Of a stretch of 64,000 nucleotides of DNA, positions 13,724 to 43,103 are shown one piece after another. Under the pieces are notes generated by a model that saw nothing but the letters and a program-made list of their open reading frames with translations, ran no database searches and was not told where the DNA came from. Position numbers and translations under genes: made by a program. This DNA comes from Pelagibacteraceae bacterium (lineage in GTDB: Bacteria; Pseudomonadota; Alphaproteobacteria; Pelagibacterales; Pelagibacteraceae): contig JALEGD010000001.1 of assembly GCA_022763425.1 (NCBI GenBank), forward strand, positions 634,572 through 698,571, in the 5' to 3' direction. Each line of letters starts with the position of its first letter. The stretch's first letter is position 1.

Positions 13724-15130
13724 TTATGAGCTATAATACATCTGAAACTCGATAGGGTGAGGGGTATGTTCAAAGTTATGAATTTCCTCCATCTTCAAGT
13801 CGATATATGCATCAATTTGATCGTCTGTGAAAACTCCACCTTCGGTTAAGAATTTTCTATCTGCATCTAATGATGTCACTGCTTCTCTTAACGAACCGCA
13901 TACAGTTGGAACACCTTTAAGCTCTTCTTCTGATAATGCATACAGATCTTTATCAAAAGGTTTACCTGGATCAATTTTATTTTTGATTCCATCTAATCCA
14001 GCCATTAGTAGCGATGCAAAAGTTAGGTAAGGGTTACCTGCTGCATCTGGGAAACGCACTTCCACTCTTTTACCTTTTGGGCTAGTACTAAAAGGTATTC
14101 TGCAGCTTGCAGATCTATTTCTTGATGAGTAAGCAAGTAAAACTGGTGCTTCGAAACCAGGTATTAATCTTTTATAACTATTTGTTGTTGAGTTTGTAAA
14201 AGCATTGATTGCTTTTGCGTGTTTAATTACACCTCCAATATAATGCAAACAAGTTTCAGACAAACCTGCATAACCATCACCTGCAAAAAGTGGTTTTCCA
14301 TCTTTCCAAATTGATTGATGGCAATGCATACCTGAACCATTATCACCTTTAACTGGCTTTGGCATAAATGTAGCAGTTTTACCAAATGAATTTGCAACTT
14401 GCTGAACCGCATACTTGTATATTTGCATGTTATCTGCGTTTCTAGTTAGCGTATCAAATAATACCCCAAGTTCGTGCTGAGAAGGAGCAACTTCGTGGTG
14501 ATGTTTTTCTACTTTGACACCCATATCTTTACAAGCTTTTAAACATTCAGCTCTTAAATCTTGAGCACTGTCAACTGGAGGTACTGGGAAGTAACCACCT
14601 TTAACACCAGGTCTATGACCTAAGTTTCCACCCTCGTATCTTTTATCCGTGTTGTAAGGACCTTCGCTACTATCAATTTCAAAACTTGTTTTATTCATTG
14701 AGTTTGCAAATCTTACATCATCGAATACAAAAAATTCTGGCTCTGGACCAAAATATATTGTGTCACCAACTCCAGATTTTTTTACGTATTCTTCAGCTAG
14801 TTTAGCTGTTGATCTTGGATCTCTTTCATACTTATCTTTTGTGATTGGATCATAAATGTCACAAAATAATACTAATGTATTGTGAGACATAAATGGATCA
14901 ATAAATGATCTACTTGTGTCTGGTTTTAACACCATATCTGACTCATTTATTGCTTTCCACCCAGCAATTGATGAACCATCAAAAAACACTCCATCGTTTA
15001 ATAAATCTTCATCAACTGTAGAGATGTCTTGTGTTAAATGTTGAAGCTTACCTCTTGGGTCTGTAAATCTTAAGTCTACGTATTCAACTTCTTTTTCTTT
15101 TATAGTTTTTAAAATATCAGCAGCGCTCAT
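13724..15130 (-). CDS. glnA: Glutamine synthetase, type I (adenylylation type)
   Basis: 468 residues. It makes glutamine from glutamate, ammonia and ATP and is the main ammonium-assimilation enzyme. GS signatures are [36 protein letters not shown] (ATP and metal site) and NRSASCRIP. Tyr397 in DKDLYAL occupies exactly the position of the Tyr adenylylated by GlnE in E. coli GlnA, which predicts GSI-beta regulation by adenylylation. A strong ribosome-binding site AAGGAGT lies 6 nt before the ATG (plus-strand 15137-15143). It is monocistronic: a terminator follows and the SDR gene is divergent. Confidence 0.98.
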
Positions 15131-38500: not shown

Positions 38501-39692
38501 TTCAAAGTTGTATGTTAAGCCAGATGAACAAGTTAAAAAAGGACAAAAAATTTGCGACTGGGATCCATATACAGTACCGGTTATTGCTGAGACATCTGGA
38601 ATTGCAAATTATGTTGATCTAGTTGATGCAGTATCTATTGCAGACAAGACTGATGAAGCAACAGGTATTTCATCTAAAATAGTTTTAGATTGGAGATCTC
38701 AGTCTAAAAATTTAGATTTAAAACCTAGAATTACTTTGAGAGATAGCAAAGACAAAGTGGTTTTAAAAGCAGATGGAAATGAAGCTAGATATTATTTATC
38801 TCCTGAAACGATTTTATCAGTGGCAGATGGAGATAAAGTGAACGCAGGAGATGTGTTAGCAAGATTGCCAAAAGCAACTTCAAAAACTAAAGATATTACC
38901 GGAGGCTTACCAAGAGTTGCCGAATTATTTGAAGCTAGAAAACCAAAAGATGGTGCGATAATTGCTGAAAATGATGGTGAAATTATTTTTGGAAAAGAAA
39001 TTAGAGGTAAGCAAAAAATTACTATTAAAGGAAAAGATGGAATAGAGTCTAATTATTTGATCCCTAAAGGAAAGCAAATCAATTACAATCCTGGTGAAAA
39101 AATTACAAAAGGTGAATATTTGTTAGACGGAAGTCCAGCACCACATGATATTTTAAGAATATTAGGAATAGAAGCGCTAACAGATTACTTTGTTAACGAA
39201 GTTCAAGATGTTTATCGATTACAAGGTGTTGTGATTAACGATAAGCATATCGAGGTTATTTTAAGACAAATGTTAAGAAAATTAGAAGTTAAAGATCCTG
39301 GGGAGAGTAGTTTATTAGCAGGTGAGGTGATGGATAAAATAGATGCTAAACATTTAAACGCTAAATTAAAAGAAGAAGGTAAAAAACAAATAGAATTTGA
39401 TCCTGTAATGCTTGGTATTACAAAAGCTTCATTACAAACTAAATCATTTATATCTGCAGCTTCCTTCCAAGAAACTACTCGTGTATTAACTGATGCTTCA
39501 ATTAAAGGAAAAGCTGATGATTTAATGGGATTAAAAGAAAACGTGATTGTAGGTCGATTAATTCCAGCAGGTAGCGGAAAAAGCAGACAAAAATACAATA
39601 AAATTGCCAAGGACAAAGACATTGAGCTTCAAAATAAGATGGCTGCTGAAGCAATTACCTCTGAGACTGAAGAACAGCCAGCAGAGGTCTAA
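35517..39692 (+). CDS. rpoC: DNA-directed RNA polymerase subunit beta'
   Basis: 1391 residues (1407 in E. coli). It carries the catalytic Mg-binding motif [12 protein letters not shown]. The N-terminal zinc ribbon has CLCGKY and CEKCG, the second zinc site uses [13 protein letters not shown], and the trigger-loop and bridge-helix region ([23 protein letters not shown]) is intact. The C-terminal tail is short and acidic (ETEEQPAEV). It ends the rplKAJL-rpoBC group; 169 nt of spacer to rpsL follow. Confidence 0.99.
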
Positions 39693-39741: not shown

Positions 39742-39770
39742 TTGACGTTCTTAAAATAATCAGTATTAAT
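39742..39770 (+). promoter_or_regulatory. Promoter of the rpsL operon
   Basis: TTGACG (39742-39747; five of six) and ATTAAT (39765-39770) are separated by 17 nt; TATTAA one base earlier is an equivalent -10 at 16 nt. It lies in the largest gap of the ribosomal region and would start transcription near 39777, giving a leader of about 85 nt before rpsL. It is the only promoter-size gap ahead of 25 tightly packed genes. Confidence 0.7.
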
Positions 39771-39776
39771 AGCGCA

Positions 39777-39852
39777 CTTTTTAAGGTAGCACGTAAAGCT
39801 ACGTTGGCTTTAAACTACTACCAACTGCTTACCAAATTGTTTCCTTAAAAAG
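39777..39852 (+). promoter_or_regulatory. Structured leader RNA upstream of rpsL
   Basis: CTTTTTAAGG (39777-39786) is a perfect 10-nt complement of CCTTAAAAAG (39843-39852), so the 5' end of the predicted transcript can pair with the bases ending 9 nt before the rpsL ATG. Inside lies a second hairpin: GGTAG (39785-39789)/CTACC (39818-39822), then, across a 4/5-nt internal loop, TAAAGC (39794-39799)/GCTTTA (39807-39812) with a 7-nt loop. The bases GG at 39785-39786 are shared by both helices, so two states could compete. An autoregulatory leader bound by a ribosomal protein is plausible; the ligand is unknown. Confidence 0.6.
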
Positions 39853-39861
39853 AATATTATT

Positions 39862-40233
39862 ATGCCAACTATAAACCAGTTGTTAAAAAAGAAACGTGTA
39901 AAGCAAGTGATTAGGAATAAAGTTCCTGCATTGCAAGCATGCGCTTTAAAACGTGGCGTTTGCACAAGAGTGTATACAACAACTCCAAAAAAACCAAATT
40001 CAGCTTTAAGAAAAGTTGCAAGGGTAAGATTGTCAAATGGATTTGAAGTTACTGCATACATCCCAGGCGAAGGTCATAATTTGCAAGAACACTCAGTTGT
40101 CATGATCAGAGGTGGAAGAGTAAAAGATTTACCAGGTGTTAGATACCACGTTGTAAGAGGTTTGTTAGATACTCAAGGTGTTGCTAATAGAAAACAACAA
40201 AGATCTAAGTACGGAGCGAAGAGGCCTAAATAA
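39862..40233 (+). CDS. rpsL: 30S ribosomal protein S12
   Basis: 123 residues. S12 lies near the decoding centre. The conserved [14 protein letters not shown] loop (site of streptomycin resistance changes in other bacteria) and [29 protein letters not shown] are intact. It opens the merged str-S10-spc operon and overlaps rpsG by one base. No clear Shine-Dalgarno is seen; a structured leader precedes it. Confidence 0.99.
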
Positions 40234-40709: not shown

Positions 40710-42788
40710 ATGAGTAAAGTTTACGCTAAAGATAAATACAGAAACATTGGTATCATGGCACATATTGATGCTGGAAAAACTACAACAACTGAAAGGGTTT
40801 TGTATTACACAGGTAAGTCTCATAAAATTGGTGAAGTGCATGATGGTGCAGCAACAATGGATTGGATGGAGCAAGAACAGGAAAGAGGAATAACAATTAC
40901 CTCAGCTGCAACAACCTGTTTTTGGAAAGATCACAGAATTAATATTATCGATACCCCAGGCCACGTAGATTTTACTATTGAAGTTGAAAGATCTTTAAAA
41001 GTATTAGACGGAGCTGTTGCTGTATTTGATGGCGTTGCAGGTGTTGAGCCACAATCAGAAACTGTATGGAGACAAGCAGATAAGTACAAAGTTCCAAGAA
41101 TGTGCTTTGTAAATAAACTAGACAGAACTGGTGCTGATTTCTACCGATGTGTAGACATGATTAAAGAAAGATTAGGTGCAACTCCTTTAGTTTTACAAAT
41201 TCCAATTGGTGCTGAAGCTGATCTACAAGGTGTTGTGGATTTAGTTAAAATGAAGGGTCTGGTATGGGAAGCGGAAGATCTTGGAGCAAAGTTTAATGAA
41301 GTTGATATTCCAGCTGACTTAAAAGAAAAAGCTGAAAAATATAGACAAGATCTTGTTGAAACGGCAGTTGAGCAAGATGAAAAATTAATGGAAGCTTACT
41401 TAGAAGGGAAAGAAATTAGCGAAGAAGACTTAAAAAAATGCATTAGGAAAGGTACATTAAATTTTAGTTTTGTACCTGTATTAACTGGTTCTGCATTTAA
41501 AAACAAAGGTGTACAACCTTTATTAGATGCAGTAGTTGATTTTCTTCCAAGTCCTTTAGATCTTTATGAAATAAAAGGAACAAAACCTGGTTCAGATGAG
41601 GAATTAGTTAGAAAATTTGATGATAGCGAACCTTTTTCAGCGCTAGCATTCAAGGTTGCTAATGATCCTTTTGTTGGAACAATTACATTTATTAGAATTT
41701 ACTCTGGAAAATTAGTTTCTGGAACTGGAGTGTTAAATTCATCTGCAGATAAAGAAGAGAGAATTGGAAGAATGCTTTTGATGCATGCTAACGATAGAGA
41801 AGATATTAAAGAAGCAAGCACAGGAGATATTGTTGCTTTGGCAGGTTTGAAACATACAATTACTGGGCATACCCTTTGTGTTAAAAACAATCCGATTGTT
41901 TTAGAGCCAATGGAGTTTCCTGACCCGGTTATTGAGATTGCTGTTGAACCAAAAACAAAAGGTGACCAGGAAAAAATGGGTGAAGCTTTACAGAGACTAG
42001 CAAAAGAAGATCCGTCTTTCAGAGTGTCATCAGACACTGAGTCTGGTCAAACCATTATTAAAGGTATGGGCGAACTTCATTTAGATATTATTGTAGATAG
42101 AATGAAAAGAGAATTTAAAGTAGATGCAAATATTGGTGCACCACAAGTTGCTTATAGAGAAACAATCGAAAGGTCAGCTGAAGTTGATTATACACACAAA
42201 AAACAGTCTGGTGGTTCTGGACAGTTTGCAAGAGTAAAATTAATTGTAGAACCACAAGAGCCAGGCAAGGGTAGAGAAGTTGAAAGTTTAATTAAAGGTG
42301 GCGCGATACCTAAAGAATTCATTCCTGGTGTTGAAAAAGGAATTGAAGGTGTGGCAGACTCTGGAATTTTAGCAGGCTTTCCTGTTATTGATTATAAAGT
42401 TCAAATTATTGATGGGTTACACCATGATGTTGACTCTAGTGTCTTAGCTTTTGAAATAGCTTCAAGAGCTTGTTTCAAAGAAGCATGTCAAAAAGGTGGT
42501 CTAAAGCTTTTAGAGCCAATTATGAAAGTTGAAGTAGTAACCCCTGAAGATTACATGGGTGATGTTATTGGTGATTTAAATAGTAGACGTGGTCAAGTTG
42601 GATCAACTGACAAAAGAGGAAATGCAACAGTGATTAATGCAAATGTTCCTTTGGCTAATATGTTTGGTTATGTAAATAACTTAAGATCAATGTCTCAAGG
42701 AAGAGCCCAATACACTATGCAATTTTCTCATTATGAAAAAGTTCCTCAAAATGTTCAGGACGAAGTAACAAAGAAACTGGCAGGATAA
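40710..42788 (+). CDS. fusA: Elongation factor G
   Basis: 692 residues. Translocase GTPase. G-motifs are [18 protein letters not shown] and NKLDRTGAD. Domains II to V follow with GMGELHLDI, and domain IV ends in [26 protein letters not shown]. It lies 6 nt after rpsG and 6 nt before rpsJ. The tuf gene usually found next in the str operon is absent here. Confidence 0.99.
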
Positions 42789-42794
42789 TAACAA

Positions 42795-43103
42795 ATGGAT
42801 CAACAACATATCAGAATTAGACTGCAAGCTTACGATCACAAAATATTAGATCAATCGACTGAAGAGATTGTAAATACTGCTAAAAGAACTGGAGCTCAAA
42901 TTAAAGGACCTATTCCACTTCCAACAAAAAAAGAAATTTACACTGTATTGAGATCACCTCATATTGATAAGAAGAGTAGAGAGCAATTTGAGACAAGAAC
43001 TCATAAGAGACTAATTGATATTATGGAACCAACACCAGCTACAATCGAAGCTTTAATGAAGTTAGATTTAGCAGCAGGTGTAGATGTGGAGATTAAAATT
43101 TAG
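42795..43103 (+). CDS. rpsJ: 30S ribosomal protein S10
   Basis: 102 residues. Ribosomal protein and NusG/NusB partner in antitermination. Conserved blocks are [35 protein letters not shown] and [12 protein letters not shown]. It starts 6 nt after fusA, so no separate S10-operon promoter or leader fits in the gap. Confidence 0.99.

Follow-up and report, generated by a model that had tools for sequence, protein, structure and literature searches.

A candidate S8-responsive leader ahead of the rpsL operon in SAR11 bacteria and other Alphaproteobacteria

Described leaders and the locus in a SAR11 genome

Ribosomal protein S8 is a known translational repressor of the spc operon in E. coli. In Ca. 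Pelagibacter ubique, an element termed the 'rpsL motif' was described at the place considered here, with a P1 that carries a bulge, a P2 supported by covariation, and a junction of three stems whose nucleotides are highly conserved, and it was found in SAR11 and marine metagenomes only (Meyer et al., 2009; PMC2704228). The authors considered it a probable ribosomal-protein regulator, naming no ligand and seeing no likeness to the sites of S7, S8, or L4 (PMC2704228). Furthermore, a survey of rpsL leaders reported no globally conserved structure and no sequence feature common with the Pelagibacter element (Naville and Gautheret, 2010; PMC2965389). In the literature searched, the name 'rpsL motif' was met in Meyer et al. 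(2009) only, and no family of Rfam 15 matches the element at gathering or relaxed thresholds.

The DNA analysed here, hereafter the window, comprises 64,000 nt of a Pelagibacteraceae bacterium (GCA_022763425.1, contig JALEGD010000001.1, positions 634,572 to 698,571 of the forward strand), and all coordinates are those of the window (Table 1). The SAR11 element in it has already been published as the rpsL motif (PMC2704228); what goes beyond that paper is the alphaproteobacterial distribution, an S8-like core with a ligand candidate, and the competition of an inner helix, X, with P1.

A 1391-aa open reading frame (ORF) ends at 39692 and is presumed to be rpoC from the place given for that gene by Meyer et al. 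(2009). After a gap of 169 nt, 25 ORFs on the same strand run from rpsL to 53667 with all gaps at 10 nt or less, in agreement with the earlier note, which had described 25 tightly coupled genes behind one promoter-size gap. The rpsL and rpsG genes overlap by one base (40233), which leaves no spacer for an S7 site of the E. coli type; the earlier note had argued from this overlap that the S12-S7 control site of E. coli cannot work here. No tuf lies between fusA and the next ORF (42788-42795), and no L30 ORF lies between the presumed S5 and L15 (51229-51233), where identities were inferred from gene order and length.

The gap contains a putative sigma-70-like promoter, and TTGAC, an AT-rich -10 box, and a subsequent GC-rich stretch occur at the same place across the SAR11 family. 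In the window, the sequence directly after the -10 box (39770-39776) is GC-rich despite the AT-rich genome, and GCGC, CGGC, or GGCG is found there in the family. A GC-rich stretch behind the -10 box is a trait of promoters under stringent control. A putative transcription start at about 39775-39777 would be compatible with the promoter-like pair. On reading of the leader sequence, no obvious terminator-type attenuator (a GC-rich hairpin and a T run before rpsL) was seen. SAR11-family leaders mostly have no GGAG-type ribosome site; a clear one is found within the last 25 nt before rpsL in a sister family (f2, leaders L181-L195), where the transcript 5′ end, UCUU, could pair with it.

Table 1. 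Features of the rpsL leader and associated genes in window coordinates
Feature	Coordinates	Strand	Basis or correspondence
Promoter-like pair (-35 TTGACG, 39742-39747; -10 TATTAA, 39764-39769; spacer 16 nt)	39742..39769	+	sequence; same placement across family
P1 5′ strand CUUUUUAAGG, outer helix	39777..39786	+	sequence, folding, clade permutation
X 5′ strand GGUAG	39785..39789	+	sequence, covariation; 39785-39786 common with P1
Invariant internal loop, 5′ side A-N-G-U	39791..39794	+	equivalent to S8-site A595, 596, G597, U598
P2 5′ strand UAAAGC	39794..39799	+	sequence, covariation
P2 3′ strand GCUUUA	39807..39812	+	sequence, covariation
Invariant internal loop, 3′ side A-A-A-C	39812..39815	+	equivalent to S8-site A640, N641, A642, C643
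X 3′ strand CUACC	39818..39822	+	sequence, covariation
Variable stretch separating X from P1 (third stem possible; alternative pairings differ by clade)	39823..39842	+	
P1 3′ strand CCUUAAAAAG, 9 nt upstream of the rpsL start codon (ATG 39862)	39843..39852	+	
rpsL (S12), at the head of the 25 coupled genes	39862..40233	+	ORF list; protein relatives
rpsH (S8), candidate ligand gene in the same operon, with STS loop	49445..49846	+	ORF list

Helices of the SAR11 leader and their competition

The pairing elements reported in the earlier note were all found. In DNA letters, the first ten bases of the predicted transcript, CTTTTTAAGG at 39777-39786, have their perfect complement, CCTTAAAAAG, at 39843-39852, a segment that ends 9 nt before the rpsL ATG; the inner hairpin of GGTAG/CTACC and TAAAGC/GCTTTA is present as X and P2; and the two G residues claimed for both the outer and the inner helix are G39785 and G39786. 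The fold of the leader is better than that of most dinucleotide shuffles (z -2.89), with 2 of 200 shuffles equally good.

Leaders were gathered from 143 SAR11-family genomes in 12 genera. Among 55 diverse cores, pairing holds in 92% of cells, and both-sided changes are seen at 7 of the 11 pairs. P2 accounts for four of these seven pairs, with 97.6% of its cells pairing, and X for three, with 85.1%. In 500 shuffle controls, which ignore relatedness, every measure lay beyond all shuffles except the number of pairs changed on both sides, which 8 of 500 attained. Tested column by column against a tree-based null, covariation was not significant, as the changes follow clades, and a helix-level test was therefore applied, for which 300 alignments were simulated along the tree with the sister family added. 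P2 scores above the maximum of each of the 300 simulated alignments, and the score of the 5-bp helix X was reached in 1 of 300. X is less certain than P2 because an unrelated alternative helix of four pairs (columns 2-5 with 19-22) scores about as high. In two clades, X is displaced by one position. The covariation check proposed in the earlier note thus yielded compensatory changes in the helices, and its single-column form with a tree-based null did not reach significance.

P1 is the least constant part of the leader and is not simply alignable, so that a strand-exchange test between clades was used. The pairing of each 5′ strand with the 3′ strand of its own clade was the best of 5040 clade permutations; when the nucleotides shared with X were left out, the own-clade assignment was weaker (89 of 5040). 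In the window's clade, 1% of shuffled 3′ regions match the real pairing with the 5′ strand. Sharing of nucleotides between P1 and X is accordingly a feature of the family and, together with the clade-specific pairing, indicates that two folds can compete, as the earlier note had supposed from the shared G residues of a single sequence.

In folding models, enforcing X and P2 costs 1 to 6 kcal/mol relative to the free ensemble, a difference that suits a switch. Enforcing both helices did not consistently close the ribosome site in these models. In the window's clade, enforcing X and P2 lowered P1 from 0.56 to 0.07 and did not lower the accessibility of the ribosome site, in a model that leaves out coaxial stacking of P1 on X. 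Such modelled opening of P1 would be the opposite of simple repression by occlusion. Additionally, a CCUUACUUC-like stretch was considered as another partner of the P2 5′ strand and rejected; this pairing is evident in genus g5, less clear in g2, g3, and g6, and absent in the window's clade, and clade permutation gives it no support (671 of 5040). In genus g5 leaders such as L028, GAAGUAAGG within the hairpin is also complementary to the CCUUACUUC-like stretch before P1 and could form an alternative long helix.

The internal-loop core and its distribution

Between X and P2 lies an internal loop with the core G-U//A-N-A-C, in which U-A and G-C pairs stand beside two bulged bases. Among the 143 SAR11-family leaders, G and U are invariant and A is present in 142 on the 5′ side, and the first A, the third A, and C are invariant on the 3′ side; the same A, A, and C are invariant in 42 of 42 mainly non-SAR11 alphaproteobacterial leaders. 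In 16S helix 21, S8 recognises a site with the pairs G597-C643 and U598-A640. These enclose the bulged N641 and the invariant A642 (PMC4176348), and equivalents of both pairs around the bulge are found in 143/143 and 42/42 leaders. Helix 21, located in SAR11 16S rRNA by similarity, reads AAGU//AAACU in this genome and in the 27 other SAR11-order genomes read, and the S8 site in the spc mRNA of E. coli, taken from the genome sequence by the published numbering (PMC4176348), is AAGU//AAACU with the strand order reversed. The leader form, ANGU//AAAC, occurs in 140 of 143.

A descriptor derived from the leaders matches SAR11 16S rRNA exactly at 597/640, and its best match in E. coli rRNA is the S8 site, the only match with nine pairs on each side; in relaxed form, it also matches elsewhere in E. 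coli rRNA. This likeness was noticed after the fact; the S8-core descriptor is found in 0.9% of shuffled leaders. In the window, a second, chance-level match falls in unrelated sequence at 14858-14885 (+). The second S8 triple, 595-(596-644), is not kept in most SAR11 clades, with A opposite A in 64 of 143 leaders. In the other Alphaproteobacteria, the loop is longer by one inserted nucleotide, and at the positions next to the core G occurs in 49 of 51 leaders and 50 of 51 can form a standard pair. The pair is C-G, U-G, or U-A, all six A partners facing U (Fisher 0.03), and judging by their sequence these positions may resemble the triple G595-(C596-G644) of T. thermophilus.

With a model of the SAR11 form, R1, the only strong match in this genome is the copy at rpsL, possible second copies being chance-level matches, and each matching genome within the family has one copy. 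The hairpin recurs in the sister family, where X has other sequences (AGUAG/CUACU and AGAAG/CUUCU). In other alphaproteobacterial rpsL leaders, the core descriptor picks hairpins in 18 of 29, compared with 21% of shuffles, which is weak evidence alone. Another model, R2, was built from eleven alphaproteobacterial hairpins and four forms of the SAR11 order; it matches 28 of 60 alphaproteobacterial rpsL leaders unused in the model, all 28 on the sense strand. Both-sided changes occur in 9 of 11 pairs among the R2 matches, in an alignment that was fitted to the structure and hence leans that way. R2 gave no match on the window's own leader. In the genome-wide search with model R3, 27 of the 28 matches listed are upstream of rpsL, 19 of these 27 in genomes outside the model; the count of at least 28 of 387 is a lower bound since the best 15 candidates per genome were scored. 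The distance between hairpin and rpsL is about 70-290 nt in most other Alphaproteobacteria.

Furthermore, the exact 22-base pattern CTGGTGGTAGG-N3-14-CCTAGACGCAG has 20 matches over 84,980 species, the record titles being Alphaproteobacteria, Rhodospirillales, Rhodospirillaceae, Reyranella, or unresolved Proteobacteria, and the 19 testable copies are all situated 136-233 nt upstream of rpsL. Ten loci of this kind have no covering family in Rfam. The best explanation is that the SAR11 leader is one version of a leader that occurs across Alphaproteobacteria, a putative kinship that rests on core, helices, and position.

The candidate ligand and comparison with known systems

S8, encoded within the same operon, is the best candidate for the ligand, and we lean, with slightly better than even confidence, toward an autoregulatory rpsL leader that responds to it. 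The internal loop of the hairpin formed by X and P2 would bind S8 by mimicking the helix 21 site, so that S8 in excess of free 16S rRNA would bind the leader and reduce operon expression. The 5′ end of the transcript is predicted to pair, as P1, with the segment before the start codon while sharing nucleotides with X, and competition between X formation and full-length P1 would be the probable output. Binding may repress through occlusion, through exposure of the 5′ end to decay, or by some other effect on translation or mRNA decay. The earlier proposal of an autoregulatory leader persists as the best explanation in view of the compensatory changes, and the proteins it suggested, S12, S7, and L4, have no match in the leader, the core of which matches the S8 site instead.

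It is possible, though on balance unlikely, that a leader of the same architecture binds a different protein of the operon (S7, S12, L4, L2, or other) and that its likeness to the S8 site is convergence or chance. S7, which is known as the str repressor of E. coli, is encoded directly after rpsL, and Meyer et al. neither saw likeness to the S7, S8, or L4 sites nor named a ligand (PMC2704228). The likeness spans only some five invariant positions and does not extend beyond the core, since R2 does not recognise helix 21 and finds nothing convincing in 16S loci, and the 23S site 1840/1899 also fits the relaxed descriptor. By contrast, among the descriptor matches in E. coli rRNA only the S8 site has long helices on both sides, and the spc mRNA has the exact A-A-A-C too.

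A structured leader that acts with no ribosomal protein, for example by shielding its 5′ end against decay or with P1 alone as a sensor of temperature or transcription speed, seems improbable to us. P1 takes in the predicted 5′ end and its 3′ strand is near the start codon in many genomes; however, the invariant positions lie outside this inconstant helix, in an internal loop, which is the mark of a binding site, and the distance of the hairpin from rpsL in most other Alphaproteobacteria also argues against such action. The block does stand directly behind a conserved promoter, yet conservation due to promoter or DNA-binding sites, with no RNA function, is highly improbable given the both-sided changes in P2 and X and the sense-strand location of every new R2 match.

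Returning to S8 as the favoured ligand, we give somewhat less than an even chance to the wider proposition that the str-S10-spc operon of Alphaproteobacteria is governed from its start by an S8 helix-21 mimic, which in SAR11 also competes with a 5′-end helix. If this is true, a control that E. coli places within its spc operon is exerted from a different site in Alphaproteobacteria. A role of the leader in setting the amounts of most ribosomal proteins is plausible. One binding event at a single leader before some 25 coupled genes would tune most ribosomal-protein synthesis, which matters for streamlined ocean bacteria with few regulators. The S8 proposal makes the orphan motif of 2009 directly testable, and the alphaproteobacterial spread permits work in laboratory species.

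Compared with known systems, the window's leader is a member of the rpsL motif (Meyer et al., 2009), sharing its place between rpoC and rpsL in SAR11, the covarying P2 with a loop of variable length, and the conserved flanking nucleotides, and differing in the occurrence across Alphaproteobacteria, the X helix competing with P1, the S8-like core, and the proposed ligand. The terminator-type rpsL leaders (PMC2965389) precede the same gene, although they are defined by terminators. The S7 site of the E. coli str operon controls rpsL-rpsG-fusA from the rpsL-rpsG gap, and no such gap exists here. With the E. coli spc S8 operator and 16S helix 21 (PMC4176348, PMC10931766), the leader shares the equivalents of G597-C643, U598-A640, N641, and the invariant A642; S8 is encoded in the operon in both cases, its regulation being putative here. 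Unlike the spc site, which lies at rplE and has no E. coli-type counterpart seen at rplE in this operon, the leader stands ahead of rpsL. It further differs from the helix 21 and spc sites in the extra loop nucleotide of most Alphaproteobacteria and in the loss of the second triple in most SAR11, and the strand order of its core is that of 16S rRNA, opposite to that of the E. coli spc mRNA.
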